A DNA stretch of 64,000 bases from Candidatus Poribacteria bacterium (GTDB taxonomy: Bacteria; Poribacteria; WGA-4E; WGA-3G). A program made the position numbers and the translations under genes. Positions 6,505-63,647 of the stretch are shown here, piece by piece; positions within the stretch are counted from its first letter, which is position 1, and each line of letters opens with the position of its first letter. The stretch spans positions 1 to 64,000 of the forward strand of contig JAJDTJ010000116.1 in the NCBI GenBank assembly GCA_022827225.1. The letters run 5' to 3'. The notes under the pieces were generated by a model. The model worked only from the letters and a program-made list of their open reading frames with translations, did no database searches and was not told the DNA's origin.

Positions 6505-7770
6505 ATGGAAGAGAATAGAGAGTTAAGTGATTCTGCAGCCCTTTTAATAAAAGTAGATGGTGGTAACGGTAGCGGGTTCTTCGTTGGAAAGAATCTAATC
6601 GCCACAAATATTCACGTAGTTGCACGGACAACATCAGTTTCAGCGAAACTGATAGGAACTCAAACTGAATTCGTTGTTGAAGGTGTCACGGCATTTGATC
6701 CCCAAAATGATCTCGTCATTTTAAAAATTGCAGGCGAGGGTCCCGCACTTCCAATCGGAGACAGTGATTCGCTTCAGGCTGGCGATATTGTTCAGGCAAT
6801 AGGTTGCCCTAATGGAAAATATGAGACCACAGAAGGCACAGTACATGGTATACTATGTAACAACAAATGGGTACGGATGAGAGTTAGGACTTCTGACGGG
6901 AGTAGTGGTGGGCCTGTGTTAAACAGAAACGGTGAGGTCATAGGAATCGTCATTAGTGCTGAGCCACCTTACAGCCATGCTATTCCCGGAAATATTCTCA
7001 AAGTACTGCTTGACCAAGCGCAAGCAATAGAACCTTTAGCACAATGGCGAGAGAGAAAACAAATACGTGCCTATGCTTGCTTGGTTCAAAGCAAAATAAA
7101 ACACAAAGCAAACAACAACGACGAGACGATGATAGCTGACTTAGACAAAGCTGCTCAGTTAAACCCAGATTTTTTTCTATTTTGCTTTATCCGAGGGAAT
7201 ATGAAGGTTCACTTGGGTCAATCTAAAGTTGAAGAAGGTAACGTGGAAGTAGGACAACAGTACTACCGTAATGCTATTGGTGACTATACAGAAGCAATCA
7301 AACTATGTCCAGATTATGCTACTTCTTACGACAGGCGAGCAGCTGCGAAGTCTCATCTGGGTCAATTAGAGGTTAAGAAAGGGAATATAATAGAAGCGCA
7401 ACAGCACTACCAAGCTGCTATTGATGATCATACAAAAGCAATTGAATTATGCTCGGATTATGATTCAGCCTATAACGATCGAGCAGACGTAAAGTGTCAC
7501 TTTGGAAGATCTGAGGATACAGCAGGAAATATGAAAGCAGCTAAGGATTTATATCAAGAAGCACTAATTGACATTAATACTGCCATTGAACTAGATTCAA
7601 ATATCGCTTTGTTCTTCCATACGCGAGGCGAGATAAGGCATGCCCTTGGTGATTATAGCGCAGCAATAGAGGATTATGAGAAAGCCCGCGAAATAGATCC
7701 CGATTATACGGATGTATGCAAAGACCTTAAACTATCGAAAAAGGCACTTGAACAACAGAAAACCCTATAA
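6505..7770 (+). CDS. Trypsin-like serine protease with C-terminal TPR repeats
   Basis: This 421-residue protein has no signal peptide. Residues 10-170 form an S1/HtrA-type protease domain with His37 (IATNIHVV), Asp69 (NDLVILK) and Ser134 (DGSSGGPV). Residues about 190-415 hold tetratricopeptide repeats, some lengthened by E-G/K-G-N inserts. There is no PDZ domain. Protease, linker (EPLAQWRxxK) and TPR start are clearly related to residues about 324-530 of the 998-residue sigma fusion at 60651-63647, so the module exists both free and sigma-linked. AAGGAGG precedes the ATG. With an HNH protein before it and a possible inhibitor-like protein after it, a stress or defence role is conceivable. 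Confidence 0.85.
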   Translation: MEENRELSDSAALLIKVDGGNGSGFFVGKNLIATNIHVVARTTSVSAKLIGTQTEFVVEGVTAFDPQNDLVILKIAGEGPALPIGDSDSLQAGDIVQAIGCPNGKYETTEGTVHGILCNNKWVRMRVRTSDGSSGGPVLNRNGEVIGIVISAEPPYSHAIPGNILKVLLDQAQAIEPLAQWRERKQIRAYACLVQSKIKHKANNNDETMIADLDKAAQLNPDFFLFCFIRGNMKVHLGQSKVEEGNVEVGQQYYRNAIGDYTEAIKLCPDYATSYDRRAAAKSHLGQLEVKKGNIIEAQQHYQAAIDDHTKAIELCSDYDSAYNDRADVKCHFGRSEDTAGNMKAAKDLYQEALIDINTAIELDSNIALFFHTRGEIRHALGDYSAAIEDYEKAREIDPDYTDVCKDLKLSKKALEQQKTL

Positions 7771-35348: not shown

Positions 35349-36329
35349 TTATTTTTCTACCTGAAGGCTCTTACCCAAATCCCATAGGAGAATCGTTCCA
35401 TCATCACTGCTACTTGCGAGGGTTTTTCCATCAGGTGAGAATCGCAATACCCTGACGGTACTTGTGTGTCCAGTGAGAGTTGTCAGTATCCGTCCACTTG
35501 GAATTTCCCACAAACGAATAAGGTCTGATCTGCCTAACTGGCTGTCGTACACACTGCCACCGGCGAGGATTTTCCCATCAGGTGAGAATGCCACAGCGAA
35601 AACCTCATTTGTATAAGTCGGAAGTGTCAGTATTTCGTTACCGGTGATGGCATCCCACAGCCGGACCGTTGCATCCTCGCTCCCACTCGCAAGGATTTTC
35701 CTATCGGGTGAAAACGCGAACGTCCAGATATCGCCTTTATGTCCCGTGATTCGATACATTTCGCGACCGGTTGCGACCTCCTGTACCTGAATGTACTTGT
35801 AATCTTTGTCAATCTTAGCAGTGATGATAGGATTGGGTAAATTCCGAGATCGTTTTCCAAGCACTTCTTTAAGGTCAGGGGCTGAGATTTGGACACCCGT
35901 GGTTGTATCCCAAAACAGATGTTGATGATCTTCGTGCCCCCAACGCACCCGCGTATCACTGATAAGCGTCTGTCCATCTTCAGAAAACGCCAGGGTCCTG
36001 GTACCTCTACCGTGCCCTGTGGCGAAAGTAGAAAGATATGTTCCTGTTGCCATCTCCCACTGGTGAATTGTGCCATCCCAGCTGCCCGTCAAGACAATAT
36101 CGCGATGAGGGGAAATTGCTAAGGCTTCATGTTGATCCGTATGTTTTGTGTAAATGGATTGAAGACGTTTACCTGTGGCTGTGTCCCATACATGGAGGTC
36201 TTCGTTTTCTCCACGCCAAGACCGCCAGTCGAAGCCGATGAGGGTTTTACTATCGGGAGAGAACGCCAAGTGCCCTGTGAAATTAGTAGATCCCGTAATT
36301 ATTTGCACATATTTTGAAGTGACGGGCAA
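35349..36329 (-). pseudogene. 3' part of the disrupted sigma-WD40 gene (WD40 repeats)
   Basis: This frame encodes about six WD40 units (L-A-F-S-P-D ... L-W-D/E pattern) and ends in L-L-W-D-L-G-K-S-L-Q-V-E-K. It aligns along its whole length with the second half of the intact WD40 protein at 39667-41469. Its apparent TTG start and first dozen or so residues come from the miniature element at 36284-36395, there is no ribosome site, and it is out of frame with the sigma part. It is therefore best read as the severed C-terminal half of the gene at 36283-38082, not an independent gene. Internal initiation cannot be excluded. Confidence 0.75.
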
Positions 36330-38082
36330 TGAATTGCCCTACTACAAACGCTGTTCTGATAATGAAAAGTGTGTAATTAATCCCAAAATCTACTAAATGC
36401 TTTATTGTAAGGTGGAACTGTGGTTTACCTTTTTGGAGCGTATGTAATATGATGTCATCTGTTGAACTGCTGGCAAGCATTTTCCCGTCAGGCGAAAATG
36501 CCAACCCTTCAATACGTCCACGTTTGTGCTCTCTTAGGGTTGAAAATTTTCGTCCAGTTTCTGCATCCCAGAGTCGCAGAATGCCATCCCAATGTCCACT
36601 TGCAAAAATCTCTCCATCCGGTGAAAATGCTAGTGTTTTAATTGCATTTGGATATATCAAGGTTCTATGCTTATCAATCCAAATTTTGAACCTACGGATC
36701 AGGTTATCTGTATATGTGGTATGGCGTTCAAGTTGTTCGCCGGTCTCTGTATCCCAGAGGATGAGTGTGCTGTCCCAGGAGTCACCACTGACGACGGTTT
36801 TTCCGTCGGGCGATACTGCGATGTCTTGAATGCCACCGCTATGTCCGGCGAAAACCTCGATCTGTTTGCCGGTATCTATATCCCACAACCGGACTGTCCC
36901 ATCAAAACTTCCGCTTGCAAGAAAGCGTCCATCCATCGGGAAATCTATGGCGGTGACACTTCCCGTATGCCCTGTCAGGAGCGTAAGTTCCTTTCCTGTC
37001 TGCGCCTCGTATATCCAGATGCCTATATCTGTTGCGACTGCGATGCGGTTACCATCGGGTGTATACTTGATGTCATGTAGTGTGCCTTTTCCGAGTCGAA
37101 ATTTAGCATCTTCAGGAAGCTGCCATTGAGGATAGTCTGTATCTGTCTCCTCTGATTCTGCGTCTGCAACCGATGCCGAAACATTGTTAGGCTGCTGGTT
37201 GCCGGTATCACTTTTGCTCGGTGTCCTGATATTTCCCAACTGCCTCCGAACATCCGGCTTGGATTCGAGGTTTAGCACAATAGGTGCCTCAATCAATTCC
37301 ACCGTCATCTCTGACGCAGCATCGAAACTATACGGCTTTTGGAAACGCGACAAGTATTGACTACCAACACCTAACATCAAAAATACAACTGCCAACGTAG
37401 ACGCAGCGAGCACCCACGGCACAACTGGCTTACTGCTCGGCGGCGCGACCGGTTTCAGACGCGAAATTTCACGCATGATAGTCTCTGTTAGATTCGGTGC
37501 GATCTGGAAATTGCCTAAAGCCTCTCGTATCATCGGTTCCTCCTTTTTTAATCGTTGCCGCGCCCGGTAGAGACGATTCTTAATCGCACTTACCGATACA
37601 CCCAAGAACTCACTTATCTCTTCGTACGTCATTCCCCCAAGGTAGTAGAGCGTGATGACGATCCGGTCACTCTCCTGAAGTGTGGCAAGCAGCTTCTTGA
37701 CGACTTCGCGCTGCGCTTCTGCGGTTGTCCGTTCATTTTCCGCAATGACATATCCAGAATACGTCGCATTTTCTAATTCTGCGCTGCTTGTGTCTTCCAA
37801 CGACTGTGTTAACAAACGTTTCTTACGCTTCCACATCTTGCAGTAGTTCGCCGCTATCACATAGAGCCAACCCGCAAACTTCTGGGGTTCCTTGAGCGTC
37901 GAAAGGTTCTGATACGCTTTCAGAAAGGTGTCTTGCGTAATCTCTTCGGCGACATGAAAATCTCCAGTTTTCCGCCACGCCAGCGCGTGCACCGATTTTT
38001 GGTGTTTTTTCACAAGTACGGAGAACGCAGTATCATCGCCATCAAGGACGCGTTGGATGAGTTGAGCATCGTCGTTTTTCAT
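36283..38082 (-). CDS. ECF sigma factor-membrane-WD40 fusion, truncated by a miniature element
   Basis: Residues 10-80 are sigma region 2 (A-E-E-I-T-Q-D-T-F, G-W-L-Y) and 126-180 sigma region 4 (Y-E-E-I-S-E-F-L-G-V-S with N-R-L-Y-R-A-R). A membrane helix spans about 221-243. A linker follows, then about four full WD40 units from residue 325. Residues 563-599 are encoded by the inserted element, which supplies the stop. With a cytoplasmic sigma domain and one helix, the WD40 part should be extracytoplasmic; the same module occurs behind a signal peptide at 39667-41469. The sigma half is about 65 percent identical over the first 100 residues to that of the 998-residue fusion at 60651. The truncated product may still be made. 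AGAGG precedes the ATG. Confidence 0.85.
   Translation of the reverse strand: MKNDDAQLIQRVLDGDDTAFSVLVKKHQKSVHALAWRKTGDFHVAEEITQDTFLKAYQNLSTLKEPQKFAGWLYVIAANYCKMWKRKKRLLTQSLEDTSSAELENATYSGYVIAENERTTAEAQREVVKKLLATLQESDRIVITLYYLGGMTYEEISEFLGVSVSAIKNRLYRARQRLKKEEPMIREALGNFQIAPNLTETIMREISRLKPVAPPSSKPVVPWVLAASTLAVVFLMLGVGSQYLSRFQKPYSFDAASEMTVELIEAPIVLNLESKPDVRRQLGNIRTPSKSDTGNQQPNNVSASVADAESEETDTDYPQWQLPEDAKFRLGKGTLHDIKYTPDGNRIAVATDIGIWIYEAQTGKELTLLTGHTGSVTAIDFPMDGRFLASGSFDGTVRLWDIDTGKQIEVFAGHSGGIQDIAVSPDGKTVVSGDSWDSTLILWDTETGEQLERHTTYTDNLIRRFKIWIDKHRTLIYPNAIKTLAFSPDGEIFASGHWDGILRLWDAETGRKFSTLREHKRGRIEGLAFSPDGKMLASSSTDDIILHTLQKGKPQFHLTIKHLVDFGINYTLFIIRTAFVVGQFIARHFKICANNYGIY
36284..36395. mobile_element. 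TATAGT-family miniature element, copy C, inside the sigma-WD40 gene
   Basis: TAGTAGAT (from 36284) and ATCTACTA (to 36395) are inverted. The left end then reads CCCGTAATTATTTG, close to CCCATAATTATTTG of copy A. A GGGCAAT-ga-ATTGCCC palindrome lies inside (36324-36339). TA borders both ends. It changes the frame and adds stops to the host gene. Confidence 0.7.
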
Positions 38083-38352
38083 CGGATACCTCTGGAAAAA
38101 GGAATGTTCATAATTATTAATGATGCTACTTAAAATAAAAAAGTTTCACAATTCCGTCAATTCTTGACTGTGAACTTCGCCGATAGATCCGTGAACATGT
38201 AAAGGAGGTTGAAAATTCTATTTCTTCACAGGTAGTGAGAGGGAGGCGGATTGTATCCGTGTTGCTCGATTTGCCCGCTTTCTGTTAGTGGAATTATACC
38301 ATAAATCCAGCGAATAGTGCATATGCTTTGAGCTGAGGCCCCTCTGTTTTCT

Positions 38353-43654: not shown

Positions 43655-43807
43655 AGTTTTCTCACATAAAATAATGCACCTTTTTCGCCCTTACGGTGTG
43701 TCATTATAAGTAACCCCAAAATATTTAAATTTGTTTTTGGAGAATCGGTTTAAAAACCTAAAAAATTAGGCTTTTCCAATACTGCCTGCTTTTTCACGGA
43801 GATATTT

Positions 43808-46800
43808 ATGTTCATAAAAAAGAAATGCTCAATCATCGCGTGCCTATTCTTTCTTATTTCCTGCATCCCCTACTTTTCCGCAATTACTTTTGCACAAGAT
43901 ACCCAAGACGAAAAAATTATCGAACGCTACAAATTGATGCTCAGTCGAAACCCAAAAGAGGGGAGTACATTCGATCGACTCTACCAATTTTACCTTGAAG
44001 GCGCTGGCTTAGATGCCATGGTCGCCGATTATCAGGCAGAGACGGAAGCCGACCCCAACAATTCAAGCCTCCAACTCATCTTAGGACATATTCACAAACG
44101 CCTCGGAAAAGACACAGAGACACTCGCAGCATACCAACGCGCCGTTGAACTTGCCCCCGACAATTATTATCCGCGTTTCGCATTAGGACAGATGTACGCA
44201 ACCCTGCGTAGGCATGAAGACGCAATCCGAGAATTGACGAAAGCCGCAGAACTATCTGAGCAGACACAAACTGCATCCCCTGAGGAATTGATGGCGATCT
44301 ATAAGGCACTCGGACGTGCTTATTTCAATCGAGACCGTGTAGACGAGGCAATTTCGGCGTGGACAAAAATCTCCGAACTCGACCCAGAAAACATCTTTTC
44401 CCGCATTGAGCTCGCCGACCTCTTCCGAGAGCAACAACTCTACGATCAAGCCGTCACGCAACATCAGGCGATTATCGCACTTAAAACAGAGGACCCCTAC
44501 CGAATCTGCCTCAGCCACCGGGAAATCGGCAACATTCACGAAGAGAAAGGTGATTACGAGGCAGCTATCCAAAGCTACGAAGCCGCATTGGAATTGACTG
44601 CACCGGGAAACTGGCTCCGCAAGGATCTTCAACACCGTATTATAGGCATTCATGCAGCAGATGGGAACTGGGAAGGTTTAATCGCACACTATAATGAAAA
44701 ACTTCAACAGACATCGAACGACCCCGAATTAATCGGTTTGCTGGCTTCTGTATACATTGAAAACCAACAGTTGGACGAGGGAATCGCAGCCTATCAAAAG
44801 GCACTTGAACTTGCTCCTACAGACGCTGGACTCCGTTTGAACCTGATTACTGCACTCCGTAACGCTGAAAAATATGAGGATGCCGCTGCAGCCTACGAAT
44901 CCCTCAGCGAACAGCAACCGGACGATTTCGGCATCTATCGCGAACTCGGAGAATTATACTTGCAATTAGATAACGAAGACAAAGCAAGAGCAACCTATCA
45001 GCGCATGCTCGCTCGTGACCCTGATAACGCAAGCACGCACCTCATCCTCGCAGAAATTTATGCCAATCACGAATGGGTAGACGATGCCGTCGCAGCCTAT
45101 CAATCAGCACTTTCGCTTGCGCCCGACAATCTTGATTACATTGAGTATTTCGGTGAATTCTACTTTCGTCAGGGCGATCGGGTAAAAACTTTAGAGACGT
45201 GGAATCAGATGGTCGCTGGCGGTAAGGCAGTCGCCGAAAATTATGACCGACTCGCAAATTTGCTTGATAGTAAAGCGCGGATACTAAACACCGGTACTGA
45301 AGCCATCGCAGCAAGTCGAAAGGCTGTCGAGTTGGCACCGGACGTATACCGCTATCGTGAGGCATTGGCAAAACGACTCCTCGAGAACAAAGATTATGAC
45401 GAAGCGTTAACGGAATACACTGAAGCCTCGAAACTCGCACCAAACGATTTTTTTGCTGAACAGATGGATAACCAGCGAATCGAAATCTATCGGCGACAAG
45501 GGACACTGGTCGAAAAAATTGAGGATTTGGAAGCGACACTTGAAACACCAAGCACTACCTCTGCTGATACCTTCACCCAGTACAAGCAGCTCGTCAAAAT
45601 GTACCTCAAGTTAGGGAATACCTCCTATGCCCTTGAGGTCCTTTTGAAAGCGAAAAACGCCCACCCCGATGATGTGCTTATCAACCGTTGGCTCGCCGAA
45701 ATCTACACTTTACAAGGACGGCGCGAGGACGCTAACGCTATATACACCACCCTAACTAAAATTGATGCCGCAAATGCCCGCGAATACTATACAAATATTG
45801 CGAGCTCCTATCTTGAGATTATGAATTTTGATGCTGCAACGGAGGCCGCAAAGCAAGCCGTTGCGCATAGCCCGCGGAACCCCGAAGGGCATCAGATGCT
45901 GGCACAGATCGCTACACAAGCAGCAGATTATCAAACCGCTATTGACAGTTTCAAACAGGCAATTCGCTTGCGACCAGAAGCCACCAACATCCGTTCCGAA
46001 CTCGCAGAAATCTACAAACTTTCCGGTAACCCCCGACAAGCACTCGAACAGTACTGGCGATGCTGGGAATTAAGCACAAGCGTCAACGATAAACTCGCTT
46101 TTCTCAAACCGCTTTCAGAGGTATATTACGATTTGGGACGGCGCGGCGAGTTGGAAGAAAAGTTGAAACAGATAGCGACAACGAACACATCTGATGCAGG
46201 CCCCGTCGTTGCATTGGCGGAAATCTATAAGATCGAGGGCGATTTACCAAACGCACGTTTCCAACTCGCACGCGCATTAGATCGGGATCGCGAGAACCCG
46301 GATCTCTTGGCACAACTCGTCAAAATCAGTCTTGACCTCGGCGATACACAGGACGCACTCTCCTACCAGCAGCGACTCGTCAAGGCACAACCGAATCCCA
46401 CGCATCGGCAGCGACTCGGCGAATTACTGTTTGATGTTGGACGGGAACAAGAAGCGATTCAGGCATGGACGAAACTTCTCCATACCAAAAATCAACCATT
46501 CGAGGCAGAGATTAAACTCGCTTCTCTGCTGATCCGCCACGGGCTACTCGATGAGGCGGTCTCTGTTCTCGACCGAGCAGCTGAAAAGGTGACAGGTACG
46601 AACGCACATATTACGCTATATCAACTCGGCGCAGCGTTGGTCGAAATAAACGAATACGACCGCGCACGTTCGCACTTCCAACAAATCCTTGATATGCCCG
46701 AACCGTCTCAGAACACCGGAACAACAGCATCCCGCACAACATCGGCACCCCCAGGCATTAATACAGACAGGTTCGACCTTCCACAAAGGCTCATTTCCCA

Positions 46801-49800
46801 AATTCAGCGATTCCCCTTTCAAATCAGCGGTAGACAGCAAACTCGATGGGTACCCAAAAACTTTGGAGAGGCACAAGCAGGAGCACTCGTACAGTTGATA
46901 ACGATCGCGCAACAACAACGGAGATTGACTGAGTTTATCGAACTATTTGAAGCACAAGCTGACGCAGACCCGAAAAACATAAAGAATCTCGAAACGCTGG
47001 CACACATCTACATCTTAACCCAAAACACCGATAAAACCAAGGACACTATTGATCGGCTAATTGCTGCATCACCCAACGATCCCGTCTATCAAAGCGTCCG
47101 GTTGAACAGGTTCATGGAACACAGACCCGATTATGAGACGCTAAAGAAATCCCTCAACGAAATGACGGGCTTAACCCCCGAAGCACGGTTCTGGTATATA
47201 GCGCAATACGCCAGTAATTTCTATCGCCAGGGACAGAAAGAAGATGCCGAAAAATTGGCGGCGGAACTCAAAGGTGCGAAAGTGACCGACCTCAAAACCG
47301 CGGCGAGAATCGTTAATACGCTCACTCAGATGGGCAAGACAGCGGCTGCTGAAAGTATCCTCGCCCAGCTTCCGGTCTCGCCACCCGCAACGACGCAACA
47401 ACAGCCATCACAGACACCTCAATTAGCCCTTTTCGGTCAACTCACGTCTGCTTCGCAGCAGTGGCAAGAATATAAAAATATCTATCAAAGTCTTGCGACG
47501 GCTTATCTGCGTGAAGGGCAAACGGACAAAGCGGTTGAGCTGTTCTGGACGTTCTTTGAGCGAACCAAACCGCAAGCAACCAATGCACGGCGTGTCGCCG
47601 CCTTAACATATTCCAATCGCTTTTACTCCGGATACACACCTTTACAAACCAAGTATCCGTCACCGACGACTTACTACAACCAAAACCGTTTAGAGTTCCT
47701 CCAGCAGGTTTTCACGCAGTTGTGGGCCCACAACAAACAAGCAGCGCTGTACAAAAAATTCCAGGTTGCGTTAGACACTGCAACAGGTAAGGATCGCGTT
47801 TACCCAGCTTTAGCACTCAGTTATTGCTATTGGTGGTCAGGGCAGCGCGACAAAGCACAAGAAATCCTCTCCTCGCTCCAAAAGGAATTTCCTGAGGATC
47901 TCACGCTCAAACTGAACACTATCTTTCCCGCGATTCAAACTGGAGAACACGCGACCGCACTCGAATTGCTCACTGAACTCGCTGAAGTTGATCCAAGAAA
48001 CCGCAAGCAGTACTATGAACTCACATTGCAGATCGCGGCACAAGTCGGAGATACCGTCGCTGTACGTGAATTGGTAACAAGGGTACTCAATTCACCAAGT
48101 GGGGCTCGAGAACTTCATCAATTCTCGCAAACACTCCAACAATATGGACTCACGCAATACGCTATTGCCATTGCTAAGAAAGCCATGAACCTTGCGATGG
48201 GTGAAAGCGATCCGAACTTCCTTGTGGATTTGAGTCGGCATTTAGAGGACTTAGGACGAGGACAGGACGCCTCCCGTATTGCTGAGCGCGCGATGCGGTT
48301 CGCCAACCAGCGCGACCGATACGGACGAACATTGCATCGATGGGACCTGCAACGAGCCGTCCAACTCGCAGGACGTTCTAAAGAACTCCGAGACCGTGAA
48401 CCGCAGTTGGTTGCAGCTGCTCAGAAGGACCCGAATTCGTTCCAGGCACAAGTCAAGTTGGCAACGTTCTATGAACAGATAAATCAGATAGAAAAAGCGT
48501 CCGAAGCATACGAGGCGGCACTGACCCTACGTCCCAAAGATAGCATGACGCGGCAGCGATACGCACAGATGTTAGACCGAAACGGAAAAGCGAAAGAAGC
48601 TGCAGCACAATACCTACGACTCCTGAAAGAGAACCCGAACGCACTCGGTTACAACTATCATCAGGTCATGGAAACGTTCTTTAAAGCAGGCAAGGTTGAT
48701 GAACTCGTTTCGCTCGCCAAAGATATGATCGTTCCATCTGTCGGAACCAACTATGCCAACAGTTTCGCACAAAGCGTTGCAAGTCAGTACCTTGAAAGCA
48801 ATAGACCCAAAGCAGCTATTGAACTCTATGAAAAAATCATTGCCGTGCAGCCGAACCGATCTCAGTCCTATATCGCTTTAGCCTCCGCTTACGTCGCTGC
48901 TGGCGAGCGCGAAAAGGCGAGACAGATCCTGCGCGAAAAACTGGAAGCAAAGGATACAACACTCTCACAAGACCCACATGCCCAGGTAGAAATCGTATCA
49001 AAATTAACCCAGTTCTACAAAGCATCAGGTCAAATAGAAGAATTGCTGACGGAATATGAAACGAAACTTGCTGAGAAACCGGATGACGCATCCCTGATTT
49101 ACCACGTCGCCGCAATGAAGATTGCCGCTGATGATCTCGAAGGATCAGACGCACTCGTTGACAAACTCCTCAATGATTCGGTATCGGTAGAGCCACACTG
49201 GCTGAACAATCTCGCGGACGCTTACCGAACAGCAAATGACAGAGACCGTGAGCGTCGTTTGCTTGAATCTACGGTTACCAAAATCGATCAGCAAGATACA
49301 TGGCACCTTGTCGAAACCTATCAAAAACTTGGCACATCCTACGCTAAGCAGGGCGAAACAGAGAAAGCACAAGACATATTTCGCAAGATGGGTACACTCC
49401 GCTTGTTAAGAAGGAGCAGTTCGTATGAGAAGGAAGCCATCGCGAATACATATGTGCAACACAAAATGTGGGACGATGCTGAGGCGCTCTTGACTGAGAT
49501 TATCAATGACTTCTCAACGCAACAATGGGGCCGGGAACAAGCGCAGCGACAACTGATGCAAATCAAACGGCAACGTGATGGATTGACGAAAACAACCACC
49601 ACGTCTGAAAAAACGGAGAGATTCAACGTCGCGACGCAGCGAACATTAGCACAACAATATGTCCAACAGAACGAGATCAAAAAAGCAATCGAAATTTACG
49701 AGAAAATCGCAGAGGTAATGCCTGAGGACCTGGAATCACGGGCACAACTCGCAAATCTCTATTCACGTCAAAAGAAGCACGATAAGGCGATAGAAATTTG

Positions 49801-52800
49801 GGTGGCTTTACTGGACGCAGATCCCGAGAACACAAAGTATCAAGATGGACTCGTTGATGCTTACCAAGCCGCCGACAAAAACGCTGAAGCACTTCAACTC
49901 GCGCAGCAATACATTGCAGCGGAACCAGAAAACGGTGTCCACCGTGTTCGACTAGCGAAATTCTACGCTGCCGAAGACCGTATTGACGATGCCATTAATA
50001 CCTATAAAAAAGCCGTTGAACTGAATCCCAGTGACGGACAAACCTATCGCCAATTGGGGCAACTCTATCTCCGTAAAGATGATCTCGATGCAGCTGAAAA
50101 AGCGTTCAAGGATGCCATCCAATACGCTGGACGTGAGTGGGAACAACGCAGTATTGAACGGCAGCTCATGAACGTCTATCGGCGACAGGGAAAGTTAGAA
50201 GAGATACTTAAGCAGGCGGAAGAGGCCGGCACAATCACGCTTGATATGCAACGAGAACGCGCACAAAACTATCGAAACGCCGGCGAATCTGAAAAAGCAA
50301 TTGACGCTTATAAGAAAGCGTTGGATATGACGACGCAGAGCTACGAACGAGAAAGCATCTCCAACGAGTTACTGAAACTATATGTGCAGATCGACGATAA
50401 CGATTCGGCAATAGAACGCTATGAAAACCAAGTTCAATCGAGTCCGGTAGGGAGTATATCAATCAGTACGGGTTCGTCCGGTTTCAAAATTAGTTCCGGC
50501 GGAGATGAAGCACGCGAGACCTTGATTAATGCCTATAAAGATCAAGGAAAACTTGAGGAATTGGAGAGCCTCTTTAAGAACAAACTCGAAAACGACGCAA
50601 ATAATCCAGCAGTTCTTGAAATGGTGGCTGAAATTTCTTGGAATGCTGGCAACTATAAGAAGGCAGCAGAAGCGTATCAAGCACTTTGCAAAGCACATCC
50701 CGGGAAGACACGCAGCTTTTTCTATGCTGCTGTTGCTCTCAAGAAAAGTGGCCAACCAGACCTCGCAAAAGAGATGATCAGTCAAGGCGAGATCGCGATT
50801 GCAACAAACCCACACCCACAATTCAATGTTTTCCACTATATGACACTTGCCTCCATCTGTGCTGACGGTGAACTGTACGACACGGCGGTCAAACTCGCTG
50901 AAGAAGCAATGGCGAAAAGCTCACGGGTGGGTGGCATGATTCCTGGGCTGTCGGAATATTTATACGATATCCTTGGAAAGAGTTACCTCGGGGCAAAACG
51001 CTATGAAGAGGCCGTTGACGCCTATAAACAGATGGCGAGTCTTACCAACTCCGACGCGATGCGAGAAATGGCAGAGAAAAAAATACGTCAAGCTTACACT
51101 GAAGGCAACCTCTATGAAAAGCAGATTCCCGAACAACTACAGAAAATTCAGGAAACCCCTGATGACCTCGCGGCACATTTCGCACTTGCCGAAAGTTACG
51201 AATTAAGCGAAAAGGTTGACCAAGCCATCGCACAATACCAGAAGATCAGCGAACTTCAGCCTGATGACGCACAGTGGCAAAAAAAAATCGGAGACCTCTA
51301 CCAAAAACACCGTCCGACAGATGAAATTATCGAGGATACGGCACTCGACTTAACTGGAGACGGAAGTTTCGTAGAAATTGCCGATAGTGCTACGCTGAAC
51401 AATATCAGTCAACAGGTGACTGTGACGACTTGGATTAAACCGACCGATTTTCCGAACAGGTACACCCCTATTCTTTACAAAGGGGACAAGCGGACACCAG
51501 AGATCAGTAACCGAAGCTACGCTCTCTGGCTACGCAATGATGGTCGGGTTCAATTCGCTTCATCGCCAAGTGGTGAAGCGGAAAAGTACGCTTTTTCACC
51601 CCCAGGCGCCATTACGCTTAACAGATGGTACCACATCGCTGGTGTCATTGATGCACCAAGAAATATCATTAGACTCTTTATTGACGGGGTTGAAGTCGGA
51701 TCCCGAGACTATAGACAGAATCAAAACATTTATGAAAGTCGTCTGCCGGTCCGAATCGGTAGTTCACATGAGGAAGAGTGGACAACACACGCCTCTTTTG
51801 TGGGACAAATTGATGGCGTCTCTGTCTGGAATGTTGCACTGACTGAAGCAGAAATCCTTTCAAACATGAACACACAGTTGAAAGGGAACGAACCCGGCTT
51901 AGTCGCCTATTGGAAATTCGATGAAGTAACCGATCAGAATGTCCCTGATGTCTCACCTAACAAAAACAGCGGTAAACTAGTCGGGGATGCCAAACTCGCA
52001 TCTTATACCCGTCCAGTCGTAACGATTGCCAGCACAGCGCAATTAGCACAGGCAGCCGCAGCATATCAAAAGGCGATTCACCTCGAACCGTCCGCTTATG
52101 AACTCTATGAGCTGTTAGCACAAACCCATGTCAAATCGAATCGGTTGTCAGAAGCGGAAGCGGTGTATCGTCAGGCTTTGGACGCACCGCTTGAAGAGAC
52201 TGAACACGAGTCCGCAATCCGAAGTATCTGGAAACTCTACGCTGACAAAGATCAGAAGGATAACGGAATTGCTGCCCTCGAAGCGTTAAAACCGAAAATA
52301 GAAGCAAGTCCCACTTTGCTTGAATTGTTAGCCGATGCTTACAAAGAGACAGACGATACCGAAAAAGCAGATACATTATATGCTGAATGGTTAGCAATTC
52401 GAGAGAAAGAGGCGAACCGGCGACAAAGCCCCGCTGGCTATCTTACACTCGCAAGGTTGATTCTCGACAAAGGAATCTTGCCGGACAAAGGGTTAGAATA
52501 CGCTATACGCGCATCGCAGATGAGCTCAGGATCGAGTTACACGGCAACATTAGCGCAGGCGTACGTCATCAATGACAGATATGAAGAGGCATTGGAGCAA
52601 CTCAAACAGGAGCTAAACACTACGGAACAGGAAGCATTTGGACGTTGGTTGACTTCATGGATGTCTCGAACCGGTAAGCACGTTAAAAACAAAGGACGTT
52701 ACGTCGAGATGTTGGATGAATTAATGAATGTCATGTCTAACAATCTGAGTGTCCCATTAGATGTTCACCTTAAGTTGGCGGAGTTCTGTCGTGAAAATGC

Positions 52801-53350
52801 CATGCCAGAGAAAGCAAAAAACTATATTCAACAAACTGGCATTATCCCCGAAGATAAGTGGTTAATTCTCGGTCCATTTGATAATACAAACGGAATCGGC
52901 TACGCCAAGGCGTACATCCCTGAAAACGCAACCCACATTGACACAACCGCAAAATACGATGGTATAGACCGGCAAGTGAGTTGGCAAAGAAGCACCGATA
53001 ATACCCTGGATGGCTATATCGATCTTGGAGAGAATGTTAATTGGTGTGTCGCTTATGCGTTCGCAACTGTTACCTCACCTGATGAACGCGAGGCACAAAT
53101 CCGTTTCGATAGCGACGACCAAGGGAAAGTATTTCTCAACGGCAAAGAGGTATTCACAAATACGAATGCCTATAGCGCCAGAATTGACCGTTATACGATT
53201 CCCGTGACGCTCAAGCCCGGCGAAAATAGTATCCTCGTCAAGGTCTGTAACGAAGAAGTAAAGTGGGAATTCTTTTTACGGATTACCGACCCCGCCGGAA
53301 AACCGTTTACGGATTTAAAAATCAATAGTTCAGCCCCTGAATCCCGTTAG
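43808..53350 (+). CDS. Giant secreted TPR protein with LamG domain
   Basis: This 3180-residue protein has a signal peptide (cleavage after T-F-A, residue 29). Tetratricopeptide repeats fill residues about 40-2500 and 2720-3000; typical units read A-x-x-Y-Q-x-A-L-x-L-x-P. A LamG/concanavalin-like domain lies at about 2510-2706 (V-T-V-T-T-W-I-K-P, W-Y-H-I-A-G-V-I-D, D-G-V-S-V-W-N). Residues about 3018-3180 form a beta-sandwich starting W-L-I-L-G-P-F-D-N and containing D-D-Q-G-K-V-F-L-N-G-K-E-V, like C-terminal domains of some glycosidases. It is one uninterrupted frame of 9.5 kb. It should be a very long superhelix outside the cytoplasm, able to scaffold a complex or bind polysaccharide. Confidence 0.88.
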   Translation: MFIKKKCSIIACLFFLISCIPYFSAITFAQDTQDEKIIERYKLMLSRNPKEGSTFDRLYQFYLEGAGLDAMVADYQAETEADPNNSSLQLILGHIHKRLGKDTETLAAYQRAVELAPDNYYPRFALGQMYATLRRHEDAIRELTKAAELSEQTQTASPEELMAIYKALGRAYFNRDRVDEAISAWTKISELDPENIFSRIELADLFREQQLYDQAVTQHQAIIALKTEDPYRICLSHREIGNIHEEKGDYEAAIQSYEAALELTAPGNWLRKDLQHRIIGIHAADGNWEGLIAHYNEKLQQTSNDPELIGLLASVYIENQQLDEGIAAYQKALELAPTDAGLRLNLITALRNAEKYEDAAAAYESLSEQQPDDFGIYRELGELYLQLDNEDKARATYQRMLARDPDNASTHLILAEIYANHEWVDDAVAAYQSALSLAPDNLDYIEYFGEFYFRQGDRVKTLETWNQMVAGGKAVAENYDRLANLLDSKARILNTGTEAIAASRKAVELAPDVYRYREALAKRLLENKDYDEALTEYTEASKLAPNDFFAEQMDNQRIEIYRRQGTLVEKIEDLEATLETPSTTSADTFTQYKQLVKMYLKLGNTSYALEVLLKAKNAHPDDVLINRWLAEIYTLQGRREDANAIYTTLTKIDAANAREYYTNIASSYLEIMNFDAATEAAKQAVAHSPRNPEGHQMLAQIATQAADYQTAIDSFKQAIRLRPEATNIRSELAEIYKLSGNPRQALEQYWRCWELSTSVNDKLAFLKPLSEVYYDLGRRGELEEKLKQIATTNTSDAGPVVALAEIYKIEGDLPNARFQLARALDRDRENPDLLAQLVKISLDLGDTQDALSYQQRLVKAQPNPTHRQRLGELLFDVGREQEAIQAWTKLLHTKNQPFEAEIKLASLLIRHGLLDEAVSVLDRAAEKVTGTNAHITLYQLGAALVEINEYDRARSHFQQILDMPEPSQNTGTTASRTTSAPPGINTDRFDLPQRLISQIQRFPFQISGRQQTRWVPKNFGEAQAGALVQLITIAQQQRRLTEFIELFEAQADADPKNIKNLETLAHIYILTQNTDKTKDTIDRLIAASPNDPVYQSVRLNRFMEHRPDYETLKKSLNEMTGLTPEARFWYIAQYASNFYRQGQKEDAEKLAAELKGAKVTDLKTAARIVNTLTQMGKTAAAESILAQLPVSPPATTQQQPSQTPQLALFGQLTSASQQWQEYKNIYQSLATAYLREGQTDKAVELFWTFFERTKPQATNARRVAALTYSNRFYSGYTPLQTKYPSPTTYYNQNRLEFLQQVFTQLWAHNKQAALYKKFQVALDTATGKDRVYPALALSYCYWWSGQRDKAQEILSSLQKEFPEDLTLKLNTIFPAIQTGEHATALELLTELAEVDPRNRKQYYELTLQIAAQVGDTVAVRELVTRVLNSPSGARELHQFSQTLQQYGLTQYAIAIAKKAMNLAMGESDPNFLVDLSRHLEDLGRGQDASRIAERAMRFANQRDRYGRTLHRWDLQRAVQLAGRSKELRDREPQLVAAAQKDPNSFQAQVKLATFYEQINQIEKASEAYEAALTLRPKDSMTRQRYAQMLDRNGKAKEAAAQYLRLLKENPNALGYNYHQVMETFFKAGKVDELVSLAKDMIVPSVGTNYANSFAQSVASQYLESNRPKAAIELYEKIIAVQPNRSQSYIALASAYVAAGEREKARQILREKLEAKDTTLSQDPHAQVEIVSKLTQFYKASGQIEELLTEYETKLAEKPDDASLIYHVAAMKIAADDLEGSDALVDKLLNDSVSVEPHWLNNLADAYRTANDRDRERRLLESTVTKIDQQDTWHLVETYQKLGTSYAKQGETEKAQDIFRKMGTLRLLRRSSSYEKEAIANTYVQHKMWDDAEALLTEIINDFSTQQWGREQAQRQLMQIKRQRDGLTKTTTTSEKTERFNVATQRTLAQQYVQQNEIKKAIEIYEKIAEVMPEDLESRAQLANLYSRQKKHDKAIEIWVALLDADPENTKYQDGLVDAYQAADKNAEALQLAQQYIAAEPENGVHRVRLAKFYAAEDRIDDAINTYKKAVELNPSDGQTYRQLGQLYLRKDDLDAAEKAFKDAIQYAGREWEQRSIERQLMNVYRRQGKLEEILKQAEEAGTITLDMQRERAQNYRNAGESEKAIDAYKKALDMTTQSYERESISNELLKLYVQIDDNDSAIERYENQVQSSPVGSISISTGSSGFKISSGGDEARETLINAYKDQGKLEELESLFKNKLENDANNPAVLEMVAEISWNAGNYKKAAEAYQALCKAHPGKTRSFFYAAVALKKSGQPDLAKEMISQGEIAIATNPHPQFNVFHYMTLASICADGELYDTAVKLAEEAMAKSSRVGGMIPGLSEYLYDILGKSYLGAKRYEEAVDAYKQMASLTNSDAMREMAEKKIRQAYTEGNLYEKQIPEQLQKIQETPDDLAAHFALAESYELSEKVDQAIAQYQKISELQPDDAQWQKKIGDLYQKHRPTDEIIEDTALDLTGDGSFVEIADSATLNNISQQVTVTTWIKPTDFPNRYTPILYKGDKRTPEISNRSYALWLRNDGRVQFASSPSGEAEKYAFSPPGAITLNRWYHIAGVIDAPRNIIRLFIDGVEVGSRDYRQNQNIYESRLPVRIGSSHEEEWTTHASFVGQIDGVSVWNVALTEAEILSNMNTQLKGNEPGLVAYWKFDEVTDQNVPDVSPNKNSGKLVGDAKLASYTRPVVTIASTAQLAQAAAAYQKAIHLEPSAYELYELLAQTHVKSNRLSEAEAVYRQALDAPLEETEHESAIRSIWKLYADKDQKDNGIAALEALKPKIEASPTLLELLADAYKETDDTEKADTLYAEWLAIREKEANRRQSPAGYLTLARLILDKGILPDKGLEYAIRASQMSSGSSYTATLAQAYVINDRYEEALEQLKQELNTTEQEAFGRWLTSWMSRTGKHVKNKGRYVEMLDELMNVMSNNLSVPLDVHLKLAEFCRENAMPEKAKNYIQQTGIIPEDKWLILGPFDNTNGIGYAKAYIPENATHIDTTAKYDGIDRQVSWQRSTDNTLDGYIDLGENVNWCVAYAFATVTSPDEREAQIRFDSDDQGKVFLNGKEVFTNTNAYSARIDRYTIPVTLKPGENSILVKVCNEEVKWEFFLRITDPAGKPFTDLKINSSAPESR

Positions 53351-60490: not shown

Positions 60491-60608
60491 GATTTCCTCA
60501 CGATATCTGTGGGTTCAACATATTGTATTTAGCAGTCCCTTTTGCTATCCTAAATTGGGTCTTTTCCTCAAATCTTGCATTTTATGCAACCCTCCCACCT
60601 GCAGCACG

Positions 60609-60628
60609 TCTCTTAATATTATAAGAGA
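60609..60628 (+). promoter_or_regulatory. AT-rich inverted repeat before the sigma fusion gene
   Basis: TCTCTTA (60609-60615) and TAAGAGA (60622-60628) are perfect arms around ATATTA, 22 bases before the ATG. It could be an operator or part of a self-controlled promoter. No consensus -35/-10 pair was found. Confidence 0.35.
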
Positions 60629-60650: not shown

Positions 60651-63647
60651 ATGCCGAACAACGATGCTGAATTGATTCAACAGACTTTAGACGGCGACCA
60701 GCGGGCTTTCAGCGCACTCGTGCAAAAGTACCAAAAGCAGGTCCACGCGCTTGTATGGCGGAAAATTGGCGACTTCCACACGGCTGAAGAGATTACACAG
60801 GATATCTTTCTTAACGTTTACAAGAAACTGCAAACCCTAAAAAATCCGAATCTGTTTGCCGGATGGCTTTACGTCAGTGCCGCTCGCCGATGTCTCGCTT
60901 GGTTGAAAAAGAAGCGGATTCCGATGGAATCGTTAGAAGGAACGTCGTCAGAAGAATTAGAGGCGTTGGCTTATACCCAATACTATGCCGAACAACAGGA
61001 AGAAATCGTAAATGAACGGCAACGCGAAGTCGTCAAACGTCTCCTTCAAAAATTGCCAGAGAGCGAACGCACCGTCGTAACGCTTCACTATCTCGGCGAC
61101 ATGAGTTGTGAAGATATTAGTAAATTTTTGGGTGTATCACCGAACACTGTCAAAAGTCGGCTCCACCGCGCCCGCAAGCGATTGAAGAAGGAGGAACAAA
61201 TGGTTCGAGAAAATTTGGGCGGTTTCCAGTTTACCACGACTTTGACCGAAAACGTCTTGCGAGAAATTGCCCGTATTAAACCGACCGCGCCAGCAGGCGG
61301 GAAGCCGTGGATACCGTGGGCGATCGCCGCCTCAACGACTGCCCTTGTAGTCCTACTCATAGGAAGTGCCACCCAATACCTAACACGTTTTCAACAACCT
61401 TATAGTTTTGAAGCAACATCGGAGATGACTGTTGAGCTCATTGATACCTCCATTGTCCGTGCTTCAAAGCAGAAACTAAGTCCGAGAAATCAGATCGGAA
61501 ACGCGGATACACCCGGTAAAAATAGTGGGCGTGCTAATCGGGAGACAGACGCGTTTCAGGTCGGCGCCAATCAATCTGAACAGCCTGAGAAACCTGCCAT
61601 AATCAACGCAAAAGAGTCTACAGTCCGCTTAGTCGGGTTACCCGGCGGTGGGACAGGGTTCTTTGTAACACCCGATAAGATCGCAACCAATTTTCACGTC
61701 GCTGCAGGGATGACAATTGGGCCTATCTTTGCGAAATTAGGGCACAAAGAAACCATCTGGACAGTAGAAGGTGTTATCGCATTCGATGCTAAAAGCGATA
61801 TTGCTATCCTGAAAATCCAAGGTCAGGGGGTTCCATTACCTTTGGCTGACATTGATACACTGCAGGTCGGTGAGACTGTCTTCCTCGCCGGCTACCCCAA
61901 CTTGGCTGCATACGAGGTTACAGAAGGCGTTGTAAAAGATATACGCAGTAGCGATAAATGGCTTAAAACAACAGTCGAAGCCTATCCGGGGAACAGTGGG
62001 AGCCCCATGCTAAACAGTAAGGGTGAAGCCATTGGAATCCACGTCGGACACGGTTACGATGCTCGACCTTCAAACGCAATCAAGGCGTTACTCGCTGGTT
62101 CTACATCTATGGAACCTTTGGCACAGTGGCGGAAACAGAAAACTGTTCAGGCATACTCCCACTATCAACGGGGTTGGAAAAAATATTATGATGGAAACAC
62201 TGAAGGTGCGATCAAAGACTTCAATCAAGCGATTGAACTTACGCCTGATGATGTTGAAATCTATAAACTTAGAGCACAAGCGAGACTGAAACTTGGAGAA
62301 CTTCTGGCGGCAATGGAAGACTATAATCAAGCCATCAAGTTGAATCCCGAAGATGCTGCGCTCTATAGGGATAGAGGGAAAGCGAAATCTGATTCCGGTA
62401 ACCATACAGGGGCAATAGCGGATTATAATCAGGCACTAAAAATTAATCCTAATGCAGCTGATACCTATAAAAAACGTGGCAAGGCAAAGGCTGAACTCGG
62501 GGCTTTTGCAGGCGCGATAGAAGACTATACACAGGCTATCAAACTCAACCCTAACGATGCCGAAGTCTATAAGAACCGCGGAAAAGCAAGAGGCGAACTC
62601 GGCGATGACGAAGGGAAGATAGAAGACTATACGCAAGCACTCCAGCTAGCACCACAGGATGTATTTGCCTACAACGATCTCGCCAATACGAAACGCAAGT
62701 TAGGAGACTACGCGGGTGCGATAGCAGATTATACACACGCTATCGAAAAACTTAAAGATGGGGACGGTTCTTTCACATACGACACATATTCTGAGCACGG
62801 TTTAGGGAAAGTTACGATTAGGCCTGACGATTCCTATATCTACTCTATCTACAGCGATCGTGCAAATGCAAAACGCAAACTTGAGGACTATGCCGGCGCA
62901 ATAGCGGATTATACCTATATTATCGAACGCAGACCTAACCCTGCCTATGCTTACAGAGATCGTGCAGACGTGAAGCACGAACTTGAGGATTACACTGGCG
63001 CAATAGAGGACTATACACAGGCTATCAAACTCAACCCAAACGATGCCGAAGCCTATAAGAGCCGCGGAAAAGCAAGGGCTGAACTCGGTGATGACCAAGG
63101 GAAGATAGAAGACTATACGCAAGCACTCCAGCTAAGACCCCAAGATGTATTTGCCTACGAAGATCTCGCCGATACGAAACGCAAGTTAGGGGACTACGCG
63201 GGTGCGATAGCAGATTATACACACGCTATCGAAAAACTTAAGGATGGGGACGGTTCTTTCACATACGACACATATTCTGAATACGGTTCGGGGAAAACTA
63301 CGATTACGCCTGACGATTCCTATATCTACTACACCTACAATAATCGTGGATGGGCGAAGCGTGAATTTGGGGATCATGAGGGAGCGATAGAAGATTTCAC
63401 GCAAGCTATTGAACTTAAACCTGAGGATGCCTATGCATATAACAATCGCGCGGATGTGAAGCGCGAACTTGAGGATTACACTGGCGCAATAGCAGACTAT
63501 AGCCAAGCCATCGAACTTAATCCCGCGTATGCCATCGCCTACCACAACCGTGGGCTCGCAAAAGCAGCACTCGGACAACATGACGCAGCGAAAATTGACT
63601 TCAAAAAAGCCAAAGAGATAGCCCCAGAGGTAAGAAAAGAAAAATAA
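60651..63647 (+). CDS. ECF sigma factor-membrane-trypsin protease-TPR fusion
   Basis: This 998-residue protein has sigma region 2 (about 10-80) and region 4 (126-180, N-T-V-K-S-R-L-H-R-A-R), a membrane helix at about 221-243 and a linker. A trypsin-like protease domain (about 322-485) follows with His349, Asp383 and Ser449 (G-N-S-G-S-P), then TPR repeats from about 500 to the end. The first 270 residues align without gaps with the sigma-WD40 protein at 36283-38082, and the linker E-M-T-V-E-L-I is shared. The protease part matches the 421-residue protein at 6505. With sigma inside the cell, protease and TPR should face outward. Self-cleavage or cleavage by another protease could free the sigma domain; that is a hypothesis. 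GAGGTG precedes the ATG. Confidence 0.9.
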   Translation: MPNNDAELIQQTLDGDQRAFSALVQKYQKQVHALVWRKIGDFHTAEEITQDIFLNVYKKLQTLKNPNLFAGWLYVSAARRCLAWLKKKRIPMESLEGTSSEELEALAYTQYYAEQQEEIVNERQREVVKRLLQKLPESERTVVTLHYLGDMSCEDISKFLGVSPNTVKSRLHRARKRLKKEEQMVRENLGGFQFTTTLTENVLREIARIKPTAPAGGKPWIPWAIAASTTALVVLLIGSATQYLTRFQQPYSFEATSEMTVELIDTSIVRASKQKLSPRNQIGNADTPGKNSGRANRETDAFQVGANQSEQPEKPAIINAKESTVRLVGLPGGGTGFFVTPDKIATNFHVAAGMTIGPIFAKLGHKETIWTVEGVIAFDAKSDIAILKIQGQGVPLPLADIDTLQVGETVFLAGYPNLAAYEVTEGVVKDIRSSDKWLKTTVEAYPGNSGSPMLNSKGEAIGIHVGHGYDARPSNAIKALLAGSTSMEPLAQWRKQKTVQAYSHYQRGWKKYYDGNTEGAIKDFNQAIELTPDDVEIYKLRAQARLKLGELLAAMEDYNQAIKLNPEDAALYRDRGKAKSDSGNHTGAIADYNQALKINPNAADTYKKRGKAKAELGAFAGAIEDYTQAIKLNPNDAEVYKNRGKARGELGDDEGKIEDYTQALQLAPQDVFAYNDLANTKRKLGDYAGAIADYTHAIEKLKDGDGSFTYDTYSEHGLGKVTIRPDDSYIYSIYSDRANAKRKLEDYAGAIADYTYIIERRPNPAYAYRDRADVKHELEDYTGAIEDYTQAIKLNPNDAEAYKSRGKARAELGDDQGKIEDYTQALQLRPQDVFAYEDLADTKRKLGDYAGAIADYTHAIEKLKDGDGSFTYDTYSEYGSGKTTITPDDSYIYYTYNNRGWAKREFGDHEGAIEDFTQAIELKPEDAYAYNNRADVKRELEDYTGAIADYSQAIELNPAYAIAYHNRGLAKAALGQHDAAKIDFKKAKEIAPEVRKEK
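62520..62844 (+). repeat. Long in-frame direct repeat in the TPR region, copy 1
   Basis: A 325-base segment coding TPR units plus K-D-G-D-G-S-F-T-Y-D-T-Y-S-E recurs, nearly identical and of equal length, at 63006-63330. The offset of 486 bases (162 codons) keeps the frame, so recombination could add or delete 162 residues. Confidence 0.75.
63006..63330 (+). repeat. Long in-frame direct repeat in the TPR region, copy 2
   Basis: This is the second copy of the segment at 62520-62844, with scattered third-position and a few replacement changes (E/A, R/G, H/Y). It reflects a recent internal duplication of about three TPR units. Confidence 0.75.

Follow-up and report, generated by a model that had tools for sequence, protein, structure and literature searches.

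The window, a stretch of 64,000 nucleotides from a Candidatus Poribacteria bacterium, contains a gene whose product joins an ECF sigma factor, a predicted membrane anchor and a protease-TPR ectodomain, the putative sensor, in a single chain. The gene is one member of a large paralogous family of this kind. Poribacteria are best known from marine sponges. On balance, we think it probable that the protein is a one-protein transmembrane device, in which a tethered sigma factor carries a protease-TPR sensor outside the membrane, is released in two steps and transcribes its own gene. Sequence comparison directly supports the predicted architecture, the family membership, the export of the sensor's relatives, the shared promoter, and the covariation between the sigma factor and the -35 element.

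The initial annotation read the frame as ECF sigma regions 2 and 4, a single membrane helix near residues 221-243, a complete His349/Asp383/Ser449 triad and TPR repeats. A Pfam search of the protein recovered the sigma, protease and TPR domains: Sigma70_r2 at residues 23-89 (E 2.8e-10), Sigma70_r4_2 at residues 126-178 (E 6.6e-19), Trypsin_2 at residues 334-463 (E 6.3e-22) and TPR families over roughly residues 490-995 (TPR_1, E 1.1e-68). Pfam finds regions r2 and r4_2 alone, with r3 absent, as in group IV ECF sigma factors. The order of the triad residues fits the fold, and hydropathy agrees with one membrane helix; the sole hydrophobic stretch of the protein begins at residue 221 and has a Kyte-Doolittle value of 1.82, below that of most sister proteins.

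The nearest solved structures to the sigma domain are SigW, RpoE and AlgU. Its AlphaFold model is confident to about residue 212 and of low confidence beyond, including the membrane helix (residues 224-244 in the model). The model lies closer to the bound forms SigW-RsiW and CnrH-CnrY than to RNA-polymerase-bound forms, which is weak evidence, and no mode of inhibition is visible in it, as it is uninformative after residue 212. The conserved segment between sigma4 and the membrane (residues 183-220) has a single predicted helix at residues 197-208 and a paralogue consensus of 57% per column. Pfam found no zinc-finger anti-sigma motif (zf-HC2) in the protein, this segment included, and no FecR-like inhibitory domain, Trypsin_2 and TPR being present instead. 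In the model of residues 300-998 (mean pLDDT 87.7) a beta-rich protease is followed by a TPR superhelix. The top Foldseek matches of this protease-TPR part were the TPR superhelices of OGT and SPY; the top list consists entirely of TPR proteins and carries no information on the protease, for which PDB sequence matches include MucD, HhoA, SplE and RsgI9 (7sjy).

Table 1. Features of the reported gene and of related loci, in positions of the window; residues are those of the reported protein
Feature	Position	Strand	Basis or remark
Second cassette gene of the window (sigma, TM, WD40)	36283..38082	-	Probably frameshifted in the WD40 part; WD40 continues in 35349-36329 (-)
Family promoter of the second cassette, AATTGTGAAACT-N14-AGCATCATTA	38118..38153	-	PWM score 25.5
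Family-type promoter, 101 bases 5' of the 43808-53350 gene	43670..43706	+	PWM score 27.8
ECF-type promoter of the reported gene (putative)	60580..60616	+	PWM score 19.3 (63 paralogue regions)
Open reading frame, 998 aa	60651..63647	+	ATG start; GAGGTGA RBS-like site 5'
ECF sigma domain (sigma2 and sigma4), residues 1-182	60651..61196	+	Pfam
Conserved cytoplasmic segment after sigma4, residues 183-220	61197..61310	+	Alignments A3/A4, AlphaFold
Transmembrane helix, residues 221-243	61311..61379	+	Hydropathy, family positive-inside counts
Conserved juxtamembrane periplasmic segment (RFQ.PY...A.SE.TVE...), residues 244-290	61380..61520	+	Column consensus, ~53 genome copies
Variable spacer, residues 291-318	61521..61604	+	61% identity to orthologue, lowest of all segments
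Trypsin_2 (HtrA/Spl-like) protease, residues 319-490; His349, Asp383, Ser449	61605..62120	+	Pfam, PDB sequence matches, triad
TPR solenoid, ~500 residues	62121..63644	+	Pfam, AlphaFold, Foldseek

Sigma region 2 is matched 91 times in the source genome. A search with the A4 profile, built on the linker, helix and juxtamembrane segment alone, found 53 copies of the sigma/linker/helix/juxtamembrane cassette in the source genome. Each of the 59 genomes sampled from the same family has the cassette too, at 1 to at least 56 copies. Some other families of the order have one to three, and there are essentially none elsewhere in the phylum. Mean consensus across the cassette family is 0.74 for sigma and is higher for the juxtamembrane residues 244-270 (0.61) than for the helix (0.48), and the charges around the helix favour an N-in orientation in 45 of the 51 TM-bearing cassettes. 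About a dozen sigma-cassette genes stand in tandem on one strand of a single contig (G000:C72:1-40000). The ectodomains vary: of 66 scanned, 25 have BNR/sortilin-like propellers and up to 15 have WD40 or PD40, and LRR and others also occur. By Pfam, WD40 is matched in 13 sister proteins and is absent from the reported protein. A protease was found in one of the 67 long sigma proteins of the source genome. The source genome has six zf-HC2 matches, which are located next to short ECF genes that are not fused.

Other ECF fusions were also seen. An ECF sigma domain is joined to a DNA polymerase III beta clamp at L020:40-1767 (-) on contig G000:C77 (TIGR00663, 215 bits, above cut-off); this gene carries a family-type promoter, and the junction recurs in about 30 matches among relatives, closed genomes included. 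Fusions to FtsZ-like domains occur at L042:7097-8305 (+), L042:11136-12452 (+) and L041:2915-8149 (-), the last in a possibly chimeric frame of 1745 aa that goes on into DnaE-like and other sequence.

The same architecture, sought in related genomes, is present in the independent Poribacteria assembly JAJEET010000033.1 (L111), where an orthologue is 90% identical over its full length and lies in the same gene order. Common to both loci are an ATPase, a TPP enzyme, a LamG protein and a PhyH-type dioxygenase on one side and PQQ-type propeller proteins on the other, as named by inspection of the translations. Between the two orthologues dN/dS is 0.20 overall; it is lowest in the linker and sigma4 (0.03), followed by the protease (0.08), sigma2 (0.13) and the TPR part (0.26).

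The sequences upstream of 63 family genes yielded a single motif of two blocks, AATTATGCAACc and nGCGTCA[CT]TA, separated by 14 or 15 bases. With its AAC-type -35 and CGT-type -10 (TGCAAC...GCGTC) the motif is, as judged from sequence, a typical ECF promoter. A score of at least 12 bits is reached by 56 of the 63 regions and by 0.3% of shuffled controls, a contrast that is somewhat inflated because the motif was trained on the same 63 sequences. Exact-pattern searches against reversed controls gave 28 versus 9, 11 versus 0 and 5 versus 0 matches. The -35 of the reported gene, TTTTATGCAACC (60580-60591), fits the family motif; its variant -10 region, ACGTCTCTTAA, is a poor match at an odd spacing. 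The orthologue has the identical -35 and a -10 that differs by one base (ACATC).

Within each gene, four residues of the sigma4 recognition helix (165, 168, 169 and 172) vary in step with the -35 element. Residue 169 and -35 position 8 form the top-scoring pair (z 17.5), and the mean z is 2.19 for sigma4.2 against the -35, compared with 0.82 for sigma4.2 against the -10. Ser169 goes with TGCA and Asn169 with TGAG, Arg172 with TGCACC and His, Ser or Asn172 with TGCAAC, and Arg168 with A at position 12; there are exceptions, such as three SKSR genes with TGCAAC. The reported gene combines NKSH residues with a TGCAACC -35, as the code predicts and as in all five NKSH genes. In an alignment to E. 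coli sigma-E, residues 168, 169 and 172 correspond to Arg171, Ser172 and Phe175. The covarying traits were picked on the source genome and retested on 33 genes of other Poribacteria genomes, among which R172 with C10 (p 9e-4) and K/R168 with C11 (p 2.5e-5) were recovered, R168 with A12 was not replicated (p 0.18), S169 was invariant and mismatched control pairs of residue and base were not significant. After removal of shared ancestry, the independent pairs (3.9:0.1, 3.6:0 and 3.7:0) nearly all point in the same direction, although no single trait has enough of them to reach significance; the covariation is partly shared ancestry. The shared promoter and the covariation within each gene together imply that the cassettes would be autoregulated, partly insulated one-protein receptors.

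In about 750 kb of the source genome 68 sites for the family promoter score at least 19, where about 3 are expected by chance; a crude filter placed 51 of them ahead of sigma-type genes, and at least two further sites are those of cassettes. One candidate target is the window gene at 43808-53350 (+), which encodes a secreted TPR/LamG protein of 3180 aa, and another site scoring at least 19 precedes the gene for a secreted WD40 protein immediately behind a cassette. The C-terminal part of the 3180-aa protein resembles the end of the cassette at L068:3187-6942. Family-type promoters were also seen before genes for ABC-2-type permease-like membrane proteins (L033:8432 (-) and L073:5265 (-)) and before a STAS-like anti-sigma-antagonist gene (L070:1202). 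The secreted trypsin-TPR genes of the same genome were considered as targets and rejected, as regions L186 and L187 hold no promoter scoring at least 19. A neighbour homologous to the cassette's own ectodomain lies beside 13 of 56 cassettes, compared with 3.9 expected (500 shuffles, largest 10); this count is approximate because some of the neighbours are frameshifted or truncated pieces, such as the one beside the window cassette. Several of these neighbours carry signal peptides. The reported gene has no neighbour homologous to its ectodomain. In RsgI systems the sensor mirrors secreted proteins, and the ectodomain-homologous neighbours resemble that pattern.

The protease domain is predicted to be an S1-type serine protease with an intact triad. 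His349, Asp383 and Ser449 are kept in all 38 aligned homologues, which together with the dN/dS of the domain rules out a degenerate protease. His464 occupies the site of the specificity histidine of glutamyl endopeptidases, but residue 444 is at odds with such a specificity. Stand-alone Poribacteria proteins with Sec-type signal peptides, as judged by eye, are the nearest relatives of the protease-TPR part: their identity reaches 85% across the matched stretch of the protease, and they have the same type of TPR and the same triad. As these relatives are secreted, the ectodomain of the reported protein should lie outside the membrane. Their secretion and the N-in charge pattern of the cassettes both speak against a protease on the cytoplasmic side, a placement that would have conflicted with the initial annotation. 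Also encoded in the window is a stand-alone Trypsin_2 protein (6505-7767 (+)) in which no signal peptide is visible and which is 44% identical to the reported protease.

In the protease tree, the reported protein and its orthologue nest, with support of 100/99, inside a group of secreted proteins from a sister genus. Outside that group falls a second fusion of sigma, TM helix and protease (L088/L113, 809 aa), which has other neighbours, and a single origin of both fusions was rejected (AU p 0.002), the second fusion standing on a long branch. A secreted protease therefore seems to have been captured by a tethered sigma factor at least twice independently, with the one long branch as a reservation.

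From these data we infer inhibition while tethered, a two-step release and the kind of ligand sensed. The ECF sigma factor would lie in the cytoplasm, anchored to the inner membrane through its helix, with the protease-TPR part outside as a sensor that probably binds or cuts a protein or peptide. Upon a signal, a general periplasmic protease would trim the ectodomain until the conserved stub (about 47 residues) is left, RseP would cut the helix, and the freed sigma factor would transcribe its own gene, through a -35 that matches its recognition helix, plus a few targets. The fifty or so sister genes would act likewise with other sensors. RseP is encoded in the source genome, where its gene adjoins dxr, and for the hybrid sigma factor IutY, release by Prc and RseP follows the shortening of its periplasmic part to about 50 residues (PMC5411451). 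Release of the sigma factor by proteolysis near the membrane is plausible.

An alternative, which we regard as unlikely, is that the sigma factor is active while tethered, in the manner of ToxR or CadC, so that a conformational change of the ectodomain, and no proteolysis, would let it bind RNA polymerase at the membrane. It would suit a protein with a short, conserved linker and no inhibitory domain recognised by Pfam, and ECF sigma factors of the planctomycete Tuwongella, mostly WD40-bearing, are found in detergent- and SDS-soluble fractions (PMC8567305). The juxtamembrane stub is, however, more conserved than a tether requires, RseP is present, and IutY, the hybrid that has been characterised, becomes active through its release.

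The built-in protease might instead be the site-1 protease and, upon a signal, cut the juxtamembrane segment, either in the chain to which it belongs or in sister cassettes; we consider this quite unlikely. Protease and stub share one side of the membrane, the triad is intact throughout the homologues, the domain is under strong purifying selection, and the second sigma-protease fusion is of separate origin. Yet some fifty sister cassettes have the stub without any protease, and the free secreted relatives keep the same triad, which may therefore serve another function. Since only one of the long sigma proteins has a protease, it cannot be the general release mechanism, and a common site-1/RseP route acting on the conserved 47-residue stub fits better. 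Of the earlier proposal that sensor, anchor and possibly the releasing protease are combined with the sigma factor, the combination of sensor, anchor and sigma stands and the built-in protease as general releaser does not. Distinctly doubtful is the further idea that the ectodomain protease acts as its own trigger, cutting its own stub, and could as a master releaser cut sister cassettes in trans, which is conceivable because the stub is shared; were it true, one polypeptide would be sensor, site-1 protease, anchor and transcription factor for about fifty sigma factors.

It is very improbable that the swapping of ectodomains by recombination is mostly neutral and that the reported fusion is recent and has no function of its own. 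The very many copies, some of them truncated or frameshifted like the second cassette gene of the window, and the nesting of the fused protease among stand-alone proteases of a sister genus could be read in this way; against it are the full-length orthologue, the low dN/dS values of the whole protein and especially of its sigma and protease parts, and the promoter kept in the orthologue. Although the source genome is a draft of 151 contigs, an artefact of assembly or annotation that fused a sigma gene to a protease gene is ruled out for practical purposes, because junction, length and gene order are identical in an independent assembly and a second, independent fusion exists in a third.

If the tethered-and-released reading holds, about fifty membrane receptors with a sigma output operate from a single bacterial genome, each reading mainly its own promoter. 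The avoidance of crosstalk among near-identical sigma factors would become testable, as the pairs of residue and -35 base name the mutations, and so would the release of tethered sigma factors, with one stub of about 47 residues in common and sensors that vary. New sensors seem to be gained through captured secreted proteins, here protease-TPR proteins at least twice independently. The sigma/promoter pairs could serve synthetic circuits as orthogonal parts.

Tethered, fused sigma factors are already known from IutY, ECF52 and the Gemmata/Tuwongella ECF-WD40 proteins. IutY of Pseudomonas putida (ECF243), like the reported protein, has a cytoplasmic ECF sigma domain, a single TM helix and a periplasmic domain in one chain, and its RseP substrate, a stub of about 50 periplasmic residues, compares with the conserved 47 here (PMC5411451, PMC8999054). 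In IutY, which an outer-membrane receptor drives, the periplasmic part is an anti-sigma domain of the cell-surface-signalling type, whereas the reported protein has a protease-TPR ectodomain; no receptor gene was seen beside the reported gene. ECF48, ECF52 and ECF53 (for example SCO4117 of Streptomyces) likewise have sigma, one or two TM helices and an extracellular sensor in a single chain, with proteolytic release proposed (PMC8999054), but they have a zinc-finger anti-sigma domain that the reported protein lacks. ECF42 has a soluble TPR extension and no membrane helix, in contrast to the reported protein, in which the TM helix and protease stand between sigma4 and TPR.

ECF57 and the ECF-WD40 proteins of Gemmata and Tuwongella resemble the Poribacteria cassettes in their expanded paralogues and C-terminal repeat domains (PMC8999054, PMC8567305, PMC11032199), a likeness in described architecture; the available parts of these sources describe neither a protease ectodomain nor a promoter code, and by Pfam the reported protein is without the WD40-like C-terminal repeats of ECF57 and Gemmata ECF-WD40. 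The SigI/RsgI systems of Clostridium thermocellum combine a common membrane release module and an RseP step with interchangeable ectodomains, and RsgI9 has an S1C protease-like ectodomain like the protease of the reported protein (PMC12203970; PDB 7sjy match), but RsgI is an anti-sigma factor separate from SigI, whereas here the sigma factor itself bears the ectodomain. The Trypsin_2/HtrA-type protease-TPR relatives in Poribacteria, unlike the reported protein, are free, secreted and without a sigma or TM cassette. A literature search that left most subscription journals outside its scope found no paper on this cassette family in Poribacteria, and none on a protease-TPR ectodomain on a sigma factor, on about fifty such receptors per genome or on an own-promoter code. 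Set beside these known systems, what appears new is the scale of the family, the swapping of sensors and a readable code between sigma factor and promoter.
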